DNA from: a virus | Length of the DNA: 20,913 nucleotides | Direction: 5' to 3' (one strand) | IMG/VR virus record: IMGVR_UViG_3300030451_002667 | Coordinates: 1 to 20,913 of that record | In this document: piece after piece, positions 3,338 to 16,438 of the stretch | How the letters are laid out: each line of letters starts with the position of its first letter | Numbering within the stretch: the stretch's first letter is position 1 | The notes under the pieces: generated by a model | Told to the model about the DNA's origin: nothing | Databases searched by the model: none | Seen by the model: the letters and a program-made list of their open reading frames with translations, nothing else | Position numbers and translations under genes: made by a program

Positions 3338-3900
3338 TGCCCAGAGGATTATCAAGTGCAGTTAAAACAGAACTAGCAACAGGCAATATTGATCCTGTTG
3401 TTTTAGTAGAGATAGGTTTTGCAACACCTGTTTATTTAACAAATGCACCTTTTGATATTGCTTCTAGTGTTTCTGGCTCATCAAGAACTTATCTAGCCAA
3501 TGGACACTTACGCAGTATCACAGGTGCTAATGAAACTAATAGACCAACAAAAAACACTTTATCTATAAGTTTATCGGCTGTTGATCAAACATACGTTGCT
3601 GTTGCCCTTAATGAAAACATTATAAATGCTAATGTTTATATTTATAGAGGCTTTCTTGATACAAACAGTGCGATTATTGCCGACCCTTTTTTATTATTTT
3701 ATGGCACGATAGACGAATATAAAATAAGTGATAATACAACTACTGCTAATTTAATTTTAAGTATTACTTCACATTGGGGAAATTTTAGCAAAACTGCTGG
3801 TAGAACTACTACCGATAATTCACAAAAAAGATTTTTTAGTAGTGATAAAGGTATGGAGTTTGCGGCTTTGACTGTTCGTGATATTAAATGGGGTAGATAG
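3337..3900 (+). CDS. Minor tail protein, DUF2163-like position
   Basis: A 187-residue protein with TAATG coupling to the gene before it. The opening residues (MPRGLSSAVKTELATGNIDP, then VVLVEIGF) match the style of tail proteins described as DUF2163-like, where the N-terminus ends in a hydrophobic strand, followed by a beta-rich body containing statements such as VYIYRGFLD and FLLFYGTIDEYKIS. The C-terminus (AGRTTTDNSQKRFFSSDKGM) is typical of the strand-rich end of such proteins. It probably forms part of the baseplate hub between the distal tail ring and the J-like protein. It ends in TAG whose G starts the GTG of the following gene, so translation is likely coupled. Confidence 0.72.
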   Translation: MPRGLSSAVKTELATGNIDPVVLVEIGFATPVYLTNAPFDIASSVSGSSRTYLANGHLRSITGANETNRPTKNTLSISLSAVDQTYVAVALNENIINANVYIYRGFLDTNSAIIADPFLLFYGTIDEYKISDNTTTANLILSITSHWGNFSKTAGRTTTDNSQKRFFSSDKGMEFAALTVRDIKWGR

Positions 3901-4343
3901 TGACAAGCATACATCTTTATCAAGCAGAAAGAAAAGATATAGAAAATATTTATCAATTATTAGTTGAATATAAAAATGTTGATTTAGAAGATGTAAACTT
4001 TCCTGATATTGATAGAAATAAGTTAATTAATTTTATAAACACAATACTACAAAGAGGTAAAATAATTTTATTAAAAGATTTAGATCGTGATGAATTAGTT
4101 GGTTGTTGTATGTTTAACAAAGCCGAATATTTTTTTAGCACAAGTAAAATGATGCAGATACAAATGATTTATATTAAACAAAGATTTAGAAATTATAAAT
4201 TAGTAAAACAATTAATTGAATCAGTAAAAAAAGTGTCAGAAGATTTACCAATAGTTTTATCTATTACTTCTGGTTTAGGTATTGATCCTGTTTTTCAAAT
4301 GTTAGGTTTTGAAAACATGGGTGGTAATTGGAGGTTAATGTAA
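3900..4343 (+). CDS. GNAT-family N-acetyltransferase-like protein in the tail cluster
   Basis: A 147-residue protein starting at GTG 3900, which overlaps the previous stop. The order of elements fits the GNAT fold: an N-terminal strand and helix (IHLYQAERKDIENIYQLLVE), a central beta pair around KIILLKDLDRDELVGCCMF (residues about 54-73), the acetyl-CoA-binding region MIYIKQRFRNYKLVKQLIES where the usual Q/R-x-x-G-x-G/A loop appears as QRFRNYK, and a final LGIDPVFQMLGFENMGG, like the usual GF ending. The glycine of the pyrophosphate loop is not conserved, so activity is uncertain. Substrate is unknown; it could modify a tail protein or a host target. It lies where many tail clusters have the NlpC/P60 peptidase. 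Confidence 0.72.
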   Translation: MTSIHLYQAERKDIENIYQLLVEYKNVDLEDVNFPDIDRNKLINFINTILQRGKIILLKDLDRDELVGCCMFNKAEYFFSTSKMMQIQMIYIKQRFRNYKLVKQLIESVKKVSEDLPIVLSITSGLGIDPVFQMLGFENMGGNWRLM

Positions 4344-11391: not shown

Positions 11392-11960
11392 AACCTTTTG
11401 TAATAGGCACAATATTAGCCCTGATAATTATTTTTTTTCTTAATAGTATGCTGAACTCAGCTATGGCTGAGACAAACACAGTATCATCAACAGTCGTCAC
11501 AAATAATACACCACCAACTGCCAGCAGTCCTAGTGTTGTTGTGAATAATTCTGATGTATGTAAAACTGCTGTAGCTGGTGCAGTACAGACTCAAATACTT
11601 GGCATAAGTTCTGGTATGACAGTCACTGATGAGAACTGTGAACGTATAAAATTATCAAGATCGTTATATGCTATGGGAATGAAAGTCGCCGCAATATCAA
11701 CTCTTTGTGCAGATTATCGAGTGTTTGATGCGATGTGGAATGCTGGAACATACTGCCCTTTTCAATCAGCCATAGGCGAAGATGCAAAAACAGGTTGGGA
11801 AAATAATAAAAGTTTAATTCCTGAGGGTAGTTTGATATTTGTTGAACTAGAAAAAATAGAGGTTAGTGAAACACCAAACATTGTAAGAGATATAAATGAT
11901 TTTGAGAAATTTGTTATTATGGGTATGGCTATGTATATTGGTATCCCTATCATTTTCTAG
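11388..11960 (+). CDS. Exported or membrane-anchored protein of unknown function
   Basis: A 190-residue protein I do not recognise. It begins with a typical Sec signal: MKPF, a hydrophobic core GTILALIIIFFLNSMLNS, and AMAE as a possible cleavage site near residue 27. A low-complexity Thr/Ser/Val/Asn segment follows (residues 30-53), then a compact region with four cysteines (DVCKT, ENCERI, TLCADY, TYCPF) that could form disulphides in the periplasm. A second hydrophobic stretch ends the chain (KFVIMGMAMYIGIPIIF). The gene is coupled to the fibre gene by ATGA and overlaps the next gene by 65 bases. Late operon position between adhesins and lysis genes suggests a virion-exit or envelope role, but this is not demonstrated. 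Confidence 0.6.
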   Translation: MKPFVIGTILALIIIFFLNSMLNSAMAETNTVSSTVVTNNTPPTASSPSVVVNNSDVCKTAVAGAVQTQILGISSGMTVTDENCERIKLSRSLYAMGMKVAAISTLCADYRVFDAMWNAGTYCPFQSAIGEDAKTGWENNKSLIPEGSLIFVELEKIEVSETPNIVRDINDFEKFVIMGMAMYIGIPIIF

Positions 11961-13431
11961 TAAAGCTGTAGATTGTACAACTGATACAGTAGGATTATGT
12001 ACCCCTACGATAGAACAAATCATTGAAGAAGTCGTCACAGAAACAATAGAGTTCCAATCTGACGGTATATTAACCACTACAACTACTGAAACTACAACAA
12101 CAACAACGACTGTTTCTAACGAAGATTCTGGCGATATTTTAGATGGCAATAATGGTTATGTCACATCTTCAAAAGAGGGGGATATGGACATTGATTGGGG
12201 AGGTCAAGGACCTGCTACTATGCCGAGTGGTTCTGGCTGTTATAATTTAGGTACTGATAAATGTGCCCAAATAACAGGATCAGGCAACTCAACATCAACA
12301 ATGGGTGTATCTGGTATGGGCACAACTTTTATAAATACTGTTGATATATCAGATCTAAACATAAAATATGGTGGCCAAACCAATTACTCAATCAAAGTAG
12401 ATAAACGAGATGCTCAAGATTCAATCTATATGCATATTACAGGCAAGAACGGTAATACAAGTGTTTTTAGTGGTACGGATATTTTAAGTGCTAGTGGCAC
12501 GAACTCTGGTTTTAATACATACACAGGGGGATTTGATTTTTCTGGTAGCATAACGACTGTAATTATTGAGGTCGGAGGTAGAGATATAAATCTTGCTATC
12601 GGACCCTTGTTCGATGATGTCACTGTTAACGTTTTGTATAACACTATCAATACCATTGTCGAGCAAACTATAACATCTGTTGAAATGTTTGTTGCTTTAA
12701 ACCCAGATGTGCCAGATGAAGTGATAGATGTTGTTGAAGATATTTTTGATGCCAATATGCCTGTTGAATCTGATGCTGGTTTTGATTTTGAACCTATTGA
12801 GGTAGAAGAAGTAAGTTATGAAAGTGTTGAAATAGAAATCGCAGAAATAGAAATAGAAGAAATACAAGTAGTAAGTGTTGATGTTTCAGAAAATGTTGAG
12901 GTTAGTGTGGCTGATGTGGAATCAGAAATTGAAATGGAGTTAGAAATGGAGTTAGATGATGTTGAGACAGAAACCAATACAGAACCAGAATCAACGCAAG
13001 AATCCCCAACCAATAGCGAAGACGCAGAACCAACCGAAGAAAAAACAGAAGAATCAACACAGGAACCCAAACAAGAAAAAACAGAAGTAGCAGAGGCGAA
13101 AGAAGAAACCACCCAAGAAGAAAGCCAAGACGATGAAAAACAGGAATCATCTAAACAAAAAGCAGCCAAAAAAGTTTTGAAAAAGATTGATGATAAAAAA
13201 AGATATGATTCTACAAGTCAATTAAAAACCCTCGTTGTAATGCAAGTATTAGGAAACACTAAATCATTTTTCAGTGACCAACAAGAACTTAATGATAGGG
13301 CAAATTTTTTTACTAATCTAACTTTGCCAGATGCTGTGATATCTGATAATAATATAGCTGGATATTTACTGTTTGGTGGTAGCAATCAATTAATGAACGA
13401 AATGATAGATAGTCAATGGCAACAGAAATAG
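11896..13431 (+). CDS. Large exported protein with poly-Thr and Glu-rich segments
   Basis: A 511-residue protein of unknown function. ATG 11896 lies within the previous gene in another frame; it gives a convincing signal peptide (ILRNLLLWVWLCILVSLSFS with SKA before VDC as cleavage site), so the 65-base overlap is probably real. The mature chain has a poly-Thr run at about residues 60-72, a globular beta region (about 105-260; GSGCYNLGTDKCAQITGSGN, then FSGSITTVIIEVGGRDI), a Glu/Val repeat region (about 295-350), a Glu/Thr/Gln/Pro low-complexity region (about 355-410), a Lys-rich stretch and a C-terminal globular domain ending in QLMNEMIDSQWQQK. There is no lipobox. It overlaps the next gene by 16 bases. 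Confidence 0.65.
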   Translation: MILRNLLLWVWLCILVSLSFSSKAVDCTTDTVGLCTPTIEQIIEEVVTETIEFQSDGILTTTTTETTTTTTTVSNEDSGDILDGNNGYVTSSKEGDMDIDWGGQGPATMPSGSGCYNLGTDKCAQITGSGNSTSTMGVSGMGTTFINTVDISDLNIKYGGQTNYSIKVDKRDAQDSIYMHITGKNGNTSVFSGTDILSASGTNSGFNTYTGGFDFSGSITTVIIEVGGRDINLAIGPLFDDVTVNVLYNTINTIVEQTITSVEMFVALNPDVPDEVIDVVEDIFDANMPVESDAGFDFEPIEVEEVSYESVEIEIAEIEIEEIQVVSVDVSENVEVSVADVESEIEMELEMELDDVETETNTEPESTQESPTNSEDAEPTEEKTEESTQEPKQEKTEVAEAKEETTQEESQDDEKQESSKQKAAKKVLKKIDDKKRYDSTSQLKTLVVMQVLGNTKSFFSDQQELNDRANFFTNLTLPDAVISDNNIAGYLLFGGSNQLMNEMIDSQWQQK

Positions 13432-13901
13432 ATGTAGGTGGTATTAAGTTTCGAGGAGGTAAAATATTCCTTATAATAACCATTTTAAGTAGTTTTGTAG
13501 GGGTATTATGGGGTGGTTTTGAAGCTTATCAGAGGTATTTAGACATGGAAAGCAAGATAAACAACTTTGTATCGCCTGATTTTTCTCATTATGACACTAA
13601 ATTAGAGGTACTTGAAACTGAATTAAATATGCTACAATCAGAGATATCTGTTATACTTGACGAGGTGGCTTTAGTGGCAGATGTTGCTAAAGAACTTAAA
13701 AATGACCTCAAAGCAGATGTCAGAAGAATAGAAACTATTGTTGAAGATGTAGAGCAAAGAGTAAAAGAGGATAGCCGAGAAAACTCAAAAGATTTAAAAG
13801 AGGCTATAAATGGGATAAAAGACGATATGACAGAACTAGAAGAAAAAACTGAAAAGCAGATACGTAATGCTTTAGAAAACCCACTCAATCAATTGAAATA
13901 A
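13416..13901 (+). CDS. Inner-membrane-anchored coiled-coil protein, candidate spanin-like
   Basis: A 161-residue protein with one predicted membrane segment near the N-terminus (residues about 16-36, IFLIITILSSFVGVLWGGF) followed by a long, charged, heptad-rich helix from residue 55 to the end, with LEVLETELNMLQSEISVILD and VEDVEQRVKEDSREN. This N-in, periplasmic coiled-coil architecture matches inner-membrane spanins, and the gene lies at the head of the lysis cassette. No partner outer-membrane lipoprotein is encoded beside or inside it, so a spanin role is only a candidate; a virion-associated or signalling coiled coil is possible. The start codon is inside the 3' end of the preceding gene. 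Confidence 0.55.
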   Translation: MATEIDVGGIKFRGGKIFLIITILSSFVGVLWGGFEAYQRYLDMESKINNFVSPDFSHYDTKLEVLETELNMLQSEISVILDEVALVADVAKELKNDLKADVRRIETIVEDVEQRVKEDSRENSKDLKEAINGIKDDMTELEEKTEKQIRNALENPLNQLK

Positions 13902-13926: not shown

Positions 13927-14115
13927 ATGAGTAAGATAACACCTAAAACAACAAAAGAGCATATTGTAAATATTTACAACAAAATAGAGCAATTAGAATC
14001 AAATCATATTTACCATTTGCAACAAGAGGTAAAAAAATTAAATCGTATTTTGTATGCTGTAGGTTTTATGGTTGCTACTCAATTTATTGCCTGGGGATTA
14101 AAATTTTTTAGCTAA
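13927..14115 (+). CDS. XhlA-like small membrane protein
   Basis: A 62-residue protein with an N-terminal amphipathic helix or coiled coil (residues about 8-40, including VNIYNKIEQLESNHIYHLQQ) and a single C-terminal hydrophobic segment (about residues 42-60, LYAVGFMVATQFIAWGLKFF). This is the topology of haemolysin XhlA proteins, which cooperate with a holin in host lysis. It stands one base-overlap ahead of the lysozyme gene (TAATG at 14113-14117) and just after the coiled-coil gene, so a lysis role is likely. The evidence is topology and position; sequence similarity to XhlA is loose. Confidence 0.6.
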   Translation: MSKITPKTTKEHIVNIYNKIEQLESNHIYHLQQEVKKLNRILYAVGFMVATQFIAWGLKFFS

Positions 14116-14555
14116 TGGACTTACATACTTTACAACAAGAAATAATAAAAGAAGAGGGTGGTATAATCCTTAAACCTTACAAGGATCATCTTGGTTATTG
14201 GACTATCGGTGCTGGCCACCTCATTAGAGATAATGAAAAAACAGAACTTATGCAACCGATTAACTATCAAAAAGGATTAGAATTATTTTTAAAAGATTTT
14301 AATGTATCAAAAAAAGATATGGAAACTTTTACAGAGGGTATGACTATTGATGATAATGCCAAAGAATGTGTTCTTCACATGGTATTCCAACTTGGTTTAC
14401 CTCGTTTAAATAAATTTGTAAAATTTAAAAAATGTTTATCTGAAAACGATATAGAGGGTGCAATGGTTGAAATGAAAGACTCGCTTTGGTATCGTCAAAC
14501 AACCAATCGTGCAAATCGCATTATTGATAAAATGAAAAAAAGCATAGGAGTATAA
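14115..14555 (+). CDS. T4-type lysozyme (endolysin, GH24)
   Basis: A 146-residue enzyme that would cut the glycosidic bonds of peptidoglycan at the end of infection. The catalytic region is clear: EEGG at residues 13-16, KPYKD at 20-24, then YWTIGAGHLI at 28-37. By comparison with T4 lysozyme, Glu14, Asp24 and Thr30 match the Glu-Asp-Thr triad, with one extra residue between Glu and Asp. The C-terminal part keeps the family's LWYRQTTNRANRI, equivalent to the helix carrying the W..Q...R motif of T4. No signal peptide or signal-anchor is visible, so release should depend on a holin such as the one encoded next door. The following gene starts one base after its stop. Confidence 0.95.
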   Translation: MDLHTLQQEIIKEEGGIILKPYKDHLGYWTIGAGHLIRDNEKTELMQPINYQKGLELFLKDFNVSKKDMETFTEGMTIDDNAKECVLHMVFQLGLPRLNKFVKFKKCLSENDIEGAMVEMKDSLWYRQTTNRANRIIDKMKKSIGV

Positions 14556-14972
14556 ATGGTGTTAGGAAAATTATTAGGTGGTGATGCTATAAAAACTGTT
14601 GCTGGTGTTATTGATGATTTACATACCAGTGAAGAAGAAAAAGAACAATTAAAAGTAAGATTTGCTGAGATAGAGTCACGATTAAAAGAAAAACAGATGG
14701 CTATTAATTTGGCAGATGCACAAAGCACTGCTGGCGGAATAAGTGGTATGTTGCAACGTTCATGGCGACCTCTTATTGGTATGTCTTGTGCTTTAGCAAT
14801 TTTTTGGGAGTTTGTCTTGTCAAAATTTATTTTGTTTATTTGTGGATTGTTTCAGTATGAAGTGGTAAACATACCAGAGTTAGATATGGGAACTCTCATG
14901 CCTCTTGTGATGTCACTTTTGGGTATGGGTGCGCTCAGAACGTTCGAGAAAACCAAGGGAATCTCGAAATAA
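14556..14972 (+). CDS. 3TM-type holin (GTA holin family)
   Basis: A 138-residue protein. Residues 1-65 form a soluble helical region with GDAIKTVAGVIDDLHTSEEE and a charged coiled-coil part; then comes SGMLQRSWRPLIGMSCALAI, where the RSWRP motif preceding the first membrane helix is the hallmark of the 3TM holin family first described in gene transfer agents and marine phages. Hydrophobic segments lie at about residues 74-90, 92-105 and 112-128. Its place directly after the lysozyme supports a role in forming the membrane lesion that releases the endolysin. The C-terminal tail RTFEKTKGISK is basic and cytoplasmic by the positive-inside rule. Confidence 0.88.
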   Translation: MVLGKLLGGDAIKTVAGVIDDLHTSEEEKEQLKVRFAEIESRLKEKQMAINLADAQSTAGGISGMLQRSWRPLIGMSCALAIFWEFVLSKFILFICGLFQYEVVNIPELDMGTLMPLVMSLLGMGALRTFEKTKGISK

Positions 14973-14987: not shown

Positions 14988-15116
14988 ATGGCTAGAAAAT
15001 TTATTGAAGAGAAAGTCAATAAATGGTGGCATGCATTCACTGAATTAAAATCATGGGTGCAGATTGCAATAGCATTAGTTGTTGTTGTCATCGTTCATAA
15101 TTATATTTTGCATTAG
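14988..15116 (+). CDS. 42-residue single-membrane-segment protein
   Basis: A small gene starting at ATG 14988 with a strong ribosome binding site, AAAGGAG at 14975-14981, six bases upstream. The product has a charged N-terminus (MARKFIEEKVNKWWHAF) and a C-terminal hydrophobic segment (VQIAIALVVVVIVHNYI, residues about 23-39). The topology would suit a holin modulator, antiholin or small envelope peptide, but no family is recognised. It follows the holin gene by 15 bases and is followed by the basic microprotein genes. The good Shine-Dalgarno sequence and the clean membrane helix make this more than a random reading frame. Confidence 0.65.
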   Translation: MARKFIEEKVNKWWHAFTELKSWVQIAIALVVVVIVHNYILH

Positions 15117-15117
15117 T

Positions 15118-15222
15118 ATGGCTAAGAAGAAGAAAAAAACAGCTGGTCTTACTAATAAACAAAAAAAATTGCCTAAAGCATTGCAAATGGCAATCTTGAA
15201 AAAACAAAAGAAAGGGAAATAA
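15118..15222 (+). CDS. Lys-rich microprotein of 34 residues
   Basis: Starts at ATG 15118, one base after the stop of the membrane peptide, without a clear ribosome binding site, so it probably depends on translational coupling. The product begins MAKKKKKTAGLTNKQKK and ends KKQKKGK; about 15 of 34 residues are lysine and no acidic residue is present. It is the first of four consecutive basic microproteins. Such peptides could bind DNA or RNA, associate with the packaged genome, or act on the membrane; none of this is shown. Low complexity limits any family assignment. Confidence 0.5.
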   Translation: MAKKKKKTAGLTNKQKKLPKALQMAILKKQKKGK

Positions 15223-15223
15223 T

Positions 15224-15322
15224 ATGCCTAGTCATTATGGTGGTGGCAGAATGAAAGGATCAATGAAGTCAAAACCCATGAAATCCAAAAAAGCCAAAAA
15301 GAAAAAAAAGAAGAAAAGATAA
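15224..15322 (+). CDS. Lys-rich microprotein of 32 residues with Gly/His head
   Basis: Starts at ATG 15224 one base after the previous stop, with a purine-rich AAAGGGA (15211-15217) as a plausible ribosome binding site. The head MPSHYGGGRMKGSMK is followed by an uninterrupted Lys-rich tail ending KKKKKKKR. The head is of a kind I associate with tiny conserved proteins of marine phages. The 3' end contains an A AAA AAG heptamer at 15304-15310 in the phase needed for a -1 frameshift into the next gene, and the stop TAA shares its last base with the next ATG. Confidence 0.55.
   Translation: MPSHYGGGRMKGSMKSKPMKSKKAKKKKKKKR
15304..15310 (+). promoter_or_regulatory. Possible -1 frameshift heptamer A AAA AAG
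   Basis: In the 32-residue gene the codons AAA 15305-15307 and AAG 15308-15310 are preceded by A15304, the dnaX-type slippery phase. After a -1 slip the frame reads GAA GAA AAG ATA and then enters the ATG at 15322 of the next gene in frame, with no stop between. A fused protein of about 96 residues would result. Because the area is an A/G-rich lysine run, chance is a serious alternative, and no stimulatory structure is evident. Confidence 0.35.
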
Positions 15323-15504
15323 TGGTTAAGGTTGCATCAATAAAAAACATTGTAAAAGATTTAAAACCAGGACAAAAAAAAACTATGAATCGCCATGCGA
15401 AACATCATACTTTAAAACACATGCGGTCAATGGCTCGTGCAATGAAAAAGGGTGCAACCTTTGCCCAAGCACATAACAAAGCAATGAGGTCAACAGGCAG
15501 ATGA
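15322..15504 (+). CDS. Basic 60-residue protein, possible nucleic-acid binding
   Basis: A 60-residue protein beginning MVKVASIKNIVKDLKPGQKK, followed by a His/Arg/Met-rich helical part (NRHAKHHTLKHMRSMARAMK) and an end AFAQ-like segment reading TFAQAHNKAMRSTGR. Lys, Arg and His make up about two fifths of it. Unlike its neighbours it is complex enough to fold, probably as two or three amphipathic helices, which would fit DNA or RNA binding. It is coupled by TAATG to the gene before and by ATGA to the gene after. No family is recognised. Confidence 0.7.
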   Translation: MVKVASIKNIVKDLKPGQKKTMNRHAKHHTLKHMRSMARAMKKGATFAQAHNKAMRSTGR

Positions 15505-15644
15505 GTAGTGGATTTACAACAACTGCCACAATATCTGAATTAATAGACAAAAGACCTATAAAACGCAAAAAACGATCTAAGAGGTCTAAAAAAGTTGTGA
15601 AAAAAGGCTCATACAGAGCCGCACAGTCGCTTTTAAGGGTTTAG
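15501..15644 (+). CDS. Basic 47-residue protein at the end of the late block
   Basis: Starts at ATG 15501, overlapping the stop of the preceding gene by four bases (ATGA). After a neutral head MSSGFTTTATISELIDKRPI the chain turns strongly basic (KRKKRSKRSKKVVKKG) and ends SYRAAQSLLRV. It resembles a nuclear-localisation-like or RNA-binding basic patch, but function is unknown. The stop TAG 15642-15644 lies inside the left arm of the hairpin separating it from the converging leftward block, so this is the last gene of the late transcript. Confidence 0.6.
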   Translation: MSSGFTTTATISELIDKRPIKRKKRSKRSKKVVKKGSYRAAQSLLRV

Positions 15645-15665
15645 GGGTACTAATACCCCCAAACC
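15638..15665. terminator. Hairpin at convergent junction, possible bidirectional terminator
   Basis: GGTTTAGGGGTA (15638-15649) can pair with TACCCCCAAACC (15654-15665) around a four-base CTAA loop; eleven of twelve positions are Watson-Crick with one A.C mismatch. It overlaps the stop codons of both converging genes. A long uridine tract is absent on either side, although the rightward exit (TCAGTTCTTGCCTTT) is moderately U-rich, so it may end transcription imperfectly, block exonucleases, or be a protein-binding dyad. Confidence 0.6.
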
Positions 15666-16438
15666 TCAGTTCTTGCCTTTAAAACAGCCTCTTCTCGCCA
15701 AATCCAATCATCAGGGTTAGGAATCAATGAATTTTTTACATCTTCGGCTGAATTAACAGTTTTTAGGTAATAAGCCATAGCAGTTATAATATGCTCACAT
15801 AATTTCATGGCATAATCATACTCAGTAAGTGCTAGTTCATAAAAATCTGTGCCTGTTTTTTTTGCTACAAGATACCATAATTTTTGATTAGCATTTGTGC
15901 CTCTATGATAGATAGCTTGTTGCATAGCATGAGACATAGATATACCGTTAGGTTTCCTCTTAGTAGTTTTCAAATCAATATAAAAATCTTCCTTAGTATT
16001 TTTATCTTCCATGTGAAAGTCAGTATAACCAATCAGAGGTATGCCCTTGATATCTAGTTCTACTTTTTTTTGATAACCTATAAGATTCCATTTAAAAGCA
16101 TGATCTCTAAACTTTTGAACACCTAACTGTAGCAAAGGAGTAAGATATTCTTTTTCCTCTGCAGTTTTAGGGTCATTAATCCTAGAGCAGTTTGCGTCAA
16201 ACTCATCATGCATTTTTTTTTCGGCAACATCAAATTCTAATCCATTAAGAAACATATTTAAACCAGACTCAACAGCTTTTCCTCGTTCAGCCGCAGCACT
16301 ACTAGCAAACTCATAACCGAATATCCTACGTAATGCCCACCTTTCACGATTGAAAGCGAACTCGTTTAAATGGCTAAATGAAAGTGGCAATAATTTTTTT
16401 TTATCGCCACTATCAAACTTTTGAAAATGTTCTATCAT
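15650..16438 (-). CDS. PD-(D/E)XK exonuclease, Cas4/RecB-like
   Basis: A 262-residue protein at the end of the leftward operon. The nuclease motifs appear in order: an N-terminal LSFSHLNEF and AAAERGKAVESGL (the region that holds the conserved His/Glu in RecB-type enzymes, residues 48-60), GYTDFHME with Asp140, then FYIDLKTTKRK with Asp155 and Lys157 as the D-x-K pair, and MQQAIYHRG (residues 172-180), the family's Q-x3-Y motif. Two cysteines or four that would mark an iron-sulphur Cas4 are not evident. Phage enzymes of this type serve in recombination with a ssDNA-binding or annealing protein or in host DNA degradation. The start overlaps the preceding gene's stop by four bases. Confidence 0.85.
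   Translation of the reverse strand: MIEHFQKFDSGDKKKLLPLSFSHLNEFAFNRERWALRRIFGYEFASSAAAERGKAVESGLNMFLNGLEFDVAEKKMHDEFDANCSRINDPKTAEEKEYLTPLLQLGVQKFRDHAFKWNLIGYQKKVELDIKGIPLIGYTDFHMEDKNTKEDFYIDLKTTKRKPNGISMSHAMQQAIYHRGTNANQKLWYLVAKKTGTDFYELALTEYDYAMKLCEHIITAMAYYLKTVNSAEDVKNSLIPNPDDWIWREEAVLKARTEVWGY

Follow-up and report, generated by a model that had tools for sequence, protein, structure and literature searches.

Four very basic microproteins at the end of a phage late operon: a putative DNA- or head-binding cassette

Introduction

What use would a marine phage have for four adjacent, very basic microproteins encoded at the very end of its late operon? The question is raised by a 20,913-base IMG/VR virus record (IMGVR_UViG_3300030451_002667), itself a fragment, which was analyzed over its full length and is here called the window. 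Its late run on the + strand comprises genes for the tail, for two secreted proteins, and for a lysozyme and a 3TM holin, and the basic cluster closes the series. A preliminary description of the locus proposed that the small proteins are virion-packaged, DNA-condensing (protamine-like) peptides, binders of RNA or ribosomes, or cationic helpers of lysis.

Protamine-like DNA condensers are familiar from several viruses, such as P6.9 of baculoviruses, VII and mu of adenoviruses and J of phiX174. To our knowledge, tailed dsDNA phages are thought to package their DNA with small counter-ions only, and we know of no well-studied tailed phage that packages its DNA with protamines. For eukaryotic dsDNA viruses, small basic condensers are described (PMC6163548).

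Results

Composition and conservation of the cluster

Four ORFs with ATG starts, of 34, 32, 60 and 47 codons, follow one another on the + strand between positions 15118 and 15644, exactly as had been described. A34 (15118..15222, +) encodes a Lys-rich peptide of 34 amino acids with a net charge of +14 and the motif KQKxLPxALxxxIL, and B32 (15224..15322, +) a Lys-rich peptide of 32 amino acids (net +15) with an N-terminal MPxxxG motif. C60 (15322..15504, +) encodes a basic protein of 60 amino acids (net +15) that is assigned to phrog_31838 and predicted to form a three-helix domain, and D47 (15501..15644, +) a basic peptide of 47 amino acids (net +13) with the conserved N-terminus GFTTTxTISELIxKRPxKRKKR. 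A single base separates A34 from B32, whereas B32 and C60 overlap by one base (TAATG) and C60 and D47 by four (ATGA).

The cluster proved to be as poor in acidic residues as had been claimed (3 of 173, or 1.7%, vs. 12.6% across the rest of the window; P = 2e-7). Its net charge per residue is +0.33, whereas across the window's 31 remaining genes the mean is approximately 0 and the maximum +0.14. Lys and Arg dominate all four proteins; His, which had been named alongside them, is notable in the 60-aa protein only.

The shuffles, the dN/dS values and the depletion of acidic residues rule out chance ORFs of AT-rich DNA. When the region was shuffled 2000 times with its dinucleotides preserved, chains of basic ORFs reached a length of at most 2, compared to the 4 observed. 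Median dN/dS was 0.08 for A34 (29 homologues), 0.34 for B32, 0.11 for C60 and 0.30 for D47, and 0.125 for the adjacent holin. Judged by these substitution patterns, which are not those of non-coding DNA, each of the four frames is maintained by purifying selection and is a real gene. Much of the variation in B32 and D47 falls in the Lys/Arg tails, where the charge stays and the sequence drifts. Searches against Pfam, NCBIfam and PADLOC gave no significant family for any of the four proteins, and no PADLOC profile of a known anti-phage defence component matched among them.

Genes and elements around the cluster

Upstream of the cluster lie a 161-aa protein with an N-terminal TM and a coiled coil (13416..13901, +), which resembles an i-spanin by layout only, and a 62-aa coiled-coil/TM protein (13927-14115), which precedes the lysozyme here, whereas in phages of the HTVC111P type its homologue follows the basic cassette. 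These are followed by the lysozyme-family endolysin (14115..14555, +; PF00959), the 3TM holin (14556..14972, +; GTA_holin_3TM, PF11351, phrog_3427) and a 42-aa single-TM protein (14988..15116, +). The latter is encoded directly 5' of A34 and is translationally coupled to it; we assign it to the lysis neighbourhood and place it outside the basic set. On the other side, a PD-(D/E)XK nuclease (15650..16438, -) is the first gene of a convergent operon and delimits the late operon at this end. A weak hairpin of 12 pairs (15637..15666, +; z -1.85) spans the D47 stop codon between the convergent operons and possibly marks the end of transcription, and the GC skew reverses at the end of the basic cluster.

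No ORF with a canonical lipobox, as a spanin partner, was found within the window, the record being a fragment. A putative phage lipoprotein (17957-18403, -) reads VFGC where its homologue in contig L143 has a clear LAGC lipobox. Adjoining the lysis genes and the basic cluster on the upstream side is a 511-aa protein (11896-13431) with a signal-peptide-like start, a long acidic, Glu-rich region and a net charge of -70. Inside the tail module, a 147-aa protein that is GNAT-like by eye (3900-4343) occupies a slot resembling that of the "toxin-activating lysine-acyltransferase" gp47 of HTVC026P and the like-named gp46 of HTVC112P.

Distribution and variation of the cassette

Homologous loci were gathered with C60 as query. 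Of 82 loci that have C60, 80 have a recognisable B32, 77 a recognisable D47 and 43 a recognisable A34, and with few exceptions the order is the same. The search of marine phage contigs suggested at the outset thus returned dozens that carry the cluster in a fixed order, and the Pelagibacter isolates HTVC111P and HTVC026P carry it in part. A search of 84,980 genomes found, at its given sensitivity, no bacterial or prophage carrier of a relative.

The window-type order is 161-aa TM protein, 62-aa TM protein, lysozyme, holin, 42-aa TM protein, A34, B32, C60, D47 and the opposite-strand nuclease. The HTVC111P-type order is lysozyme or M15 endolysin, (A34), B32, C60, (D47), followed by basic proteins of approximately 61 and 81 aa, the larger of which is DUF5824. 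DUF5824, DUF6321 and DUF5872 are Pfam families of unknown function with small basic proteins of sister cassettes among their members; the four proteins of the window lie outside all three. DUF5824-like stretches also occur within larger proteins encoded directly 5' of the major capsid gene, namely one of 238 aa in Roseobacter phage CRP-823 (L087 3665-4381) and one of 934 aa in Salinibacter phages (L088 4792-7596). The expectation that gene finders miss such proteins was borne out for the shortest ones, as the B32 homologue of HTVC111P and the A34 and B32 homologues of HTVC026P are unannotated, and failed for homologues of 36-60 codons, which are annotated as hypothetical. The D47 homologue in HTVC202P is gp54.

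In HTVC026P the place of C60 and D47 is occupied by an unannotated, non-homologous basic peptide of 36 aa, and the endolysin of HTVC112P is followed by two basic proteins (35 and 65 aa) that are again unrelated. As the slot behind the endolysin holds unrelated basic peptides in these phages, charge is kept while families change. The summed charge of seven cassettes, from isolates or the window, ranges from +53 to +101, and at the cassette locus charge is better conserved than any single family. The MED4-184 cassette starts with an unannotated 43-aa basic protein of phrog_2423 (L082 4228-4359); 59 of 80 related contigs carry it.

C60 is a member of a conserved family with four invariant histidines

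Residues 17-59 of C60 match positions 6-50 of the 51-position profile of phrog_31838 (E 2.3e-6), and the copies of P-SCSP2 and Hodr match it with E-values of 7e-12 and 7e-14, respectively. This family of unknown function has further members in the cyanophages MED4-184, MED4-117 and P-HS2. An outward search from the cyanophage, Hodr and P-SCSP2 members yielded 348 loci and 138 distinct proteins, and nine positions are invariant in 138 of 138 sequences (H25, H29, H33, M37, G44, F47, H51, A54, and G59). No individual residue was a requirement of the search, which allowed a choice among several different peptide patterns. C60 has all nine positions in common with the family and conforms to the signature H...H-x3-H-M-x2-M-x6-G-x2-F-x2-A-H-x2-A-x4-G. 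It differs from the other members in an N-terminal extension of approximately 10 residues and in its lysis-side location in the window.

Structure prediction with AlphaFold gave confident three-helix models (pLDDT 88 and 92, the latter for C60). A sequence search of the PDB found no relative of C60, a Foldseek search against the PDB gave no significant match (best E 0.7), and no significant match to any DNA-binding protein emerged from the structural searches. The best VIA-align hits (Z 5.4-5.5) were to unrelated helical pieces (an AAA+ lid, Noc) and are uninformative; one nameless viral predicted model of 58 aa gave E 6.5e-3. The presence of four invariant histidines in a domain of 50-60 residues suggests a putative metal or phosphate site.

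Relatives of the cassette in head and packaging modules

In MED4-184-like phages the cassette lies between the minor head gene and the scaffold, with MCP following, in P-SCSP2-like podoviruses between scaffold and MCP, and in Hodr between a TerS-like gene and TerL, with the portal next. Other contigs show further arrangements, some of which adjoin lysis genes. An A34-like peptide is encoded beside the C60 homologue in the packaging region of Hodr; shuffles scored as well in 0 of 5000 cases for the best member of the A34 family and 13 of 5000 for the window copy, values to be read in the light of the low complexity of A34 and B32, which makes their homology across distant phages hard to judge.

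In the C60 tree, one half is nearly all from a head context and the other half, which includes the window, mostly from a lysis context. The tree is built on 60 columns and resolves poorly, and the context counts are biased, as the sampling of loci was seeded by queries from both contexts, partly head-context members. Therefore, the lysis and head contexts were not counted as independent events.

Contigs L072 and L141 carry an A34-B32-C60 trio in the order and coupling of the window, with a closely related C60. In both, the trio is directly 5' of a Mu-F-like minor head protein, and in L072 it is visibly 3' of the portal. In L072 the trio comes after DUF5824 and, as read from the sequence, the 61-aa family; all of these lie between portal and minor head protein, and the scaffold follows the latter. 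The L141 sequence runs on into a capsid gene, whose product is 91% identical to the capsid protein of HTVC112P. In HTVC112P itself the portal and minor head genes are contiguous, and in HTVC111P only one opposite-strand ORF separates them, the cassette being located 3' of the lysozyme. As the trio lies in the head module of L072 and L141 and the HTVC111P cassette at the endolysin end, the cassette has moved between modules in related phages. This relocation speaks against a lysis-bound role and in favour of one connected with a late product common to these phages, DNA-filled heads.

Discussion

Our preferred reading, to which we give close to an even chance, is that the cassette is a late accessory set of very basic proteins that bind DNA or the head. 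The target of the four translationally coupled proteins would be a polyanion, with the phage DNA as the likeliest candidate; they would bind it while the head fills, and some of them may remain in the virion afterward. A34, B32, and D47 would serve as flexible counter-ion peptides, either on packaged DNA or along the procapsid's acidic inner face, and C60 would be a small folded domain with affinity for DNA or the head, perhaps stabilised by a metal through its four invariant histidines. Nucleic-acid binding, presence in the virion, the mechanism and metal binding are here inferred.

Gene context therefore favours the first of the three options originally proposed, DNA condensation in the virion, in a modified form. 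The term "protamine-like" suits A34 and B32 by their composition, but not C60, which with its invariant histidines and predicted folded domain (pLDDT 92) is unlike a disordered polycation of the protamine type. The cassette proteins resemble the viral protamine-like condensers in being tiny, strongly basic, nearly free of acidic residues and late; they differ in that several different peptides are adjacent, that they are Lys- rather than Arg-rich, and that they belong to a tailed dsDNA phage. The head or packaging context expected of such a condenser is found in relatives of the cassette and is absent in the window itself, where, as in most of its C60 branch, the neighbours are lysis genes; this speaks against our reading, as do the protamine-free packaging known from well-studied tailed phages and the failure of the structural searches to match C60 significantly to a DNA-binding protein. 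A literature search found no virion proteome for any carrier, and nothing useful on DUF5824, DUF5872, or DUF6321 or on disruptins in pelagiphages. A bolder version, which we regard as doubtful, is that ocean phages of Pelagibacter and Prochlorococcus would package their genome in a chromatin-like manner, with interchangeable protamine-like peptides and a His-ligated metal/DNA-binding domain.

The lysis neighbours support the alternative that the cationic peptides destabilise the outer membrane at lysis, replacing or supplementing spanins, as the disruptin gp28 of phage phiKT does. In PMC12819732, which covers the work of Holt et al. (2022), gp28 is presented as a short amphipathic, antimicrobial-like helix. 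Like the cassette proteins it is a short cationic late peptide encoded inside the lysis region, and its place between endolysin and holin is comparable to that of the cluster, 3' of the endolysin, the 3TM holin and the 42-aa TM protein. In the half of the tree that includes the window, most C60 proteins adjoin lysis genes, in several phage types. An amphipathic stretch of C60 has a moment of 0.62, close to the 0.68 of gp28, but its hydrophobicity is lower; A34 and B32 are low in both. Overall the cassette is more charged and less hydrophobic than gp28, which has a net charge of +7 and a more hydrophobic amphipathic helix, and in hydrophobicity its peptides fall far short of both a disruptin and a TM segment. 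Neither a signal peptide nor a TM was seen in the cluster proteins, and a compact fold with invariant histidines is not expected of a membrane-lytic peptide. C60 and D47 lack local similarity to gp28, which is weak evidence because disruptin-type families are diverse and said to be hard to predict (PMC12819732). Unlike gp28, the cassette has relatives in head modules, including the trio with the closely related C60. We consider a lysis role unlikely and less favoured than DNA or head binding; it keeps some probability, as the spanin-like protein at 13416-13901 is so by layout only and no canonical lipobox partner was found in the window.

Less probable still is that the proteins act as capsid assembly aids or cement, binding the acidic scaffold or the inner face of the capsid in the procapsid and then leaving, without contacting DNA. 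The cassette does adjoin strongly acidic scaffolds in head contexts (the P-SCSP2 scaffold has a net charge of -36), but in both HTVC111P and the window it lies apart from the scaffold. Moreover, as families swap freely while charge is kept, a generic polyanion suits the cassette better than a specific protein partner.

Somewhat further down we place late RNA- or ribosome-binding factors that would favour phage translation or shut down that of the host. The smallest ribosomal proteins are likewise small, rich in Lys and Arg and poor in acidic residues, and the late operon position of the cluster would fit; however, Pfam, NCBIfam and the PDB gave no sequence relative among RNA binders, and the cassette's repeated occurrence in head modules offers no reason to assume a role in translation. 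We judge least probable that these are mobile accessory genes without a single shared function, gathered at a permissive late-operon junction, where host-takeover genes often collect: position and membership of the cassette do vary, but internal order and coupling are fixed over long divergence and the extreme charge is consistent across unrelated families.

Pelagiphages are among the most abundant marine viruses, and their small genes are mostly unannotated. Within this set C60 represents a compact and strongly conserved family, for which the four histidines give a sharply defined prediction. If one copy of each of the four proteins accompanied every capsid subunit (415 in an assumed T=7 head), the cassette would contribute approximately 24,000 positive charges, a meaningful share compared to the 80,000 phosphates in a genome taken to be 40 kb long. 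A microprotein cassette that is defined by its charge, swaps its families and moves between lysis and head modules may thus offer a test of packaged basic proteins in tailed phages.
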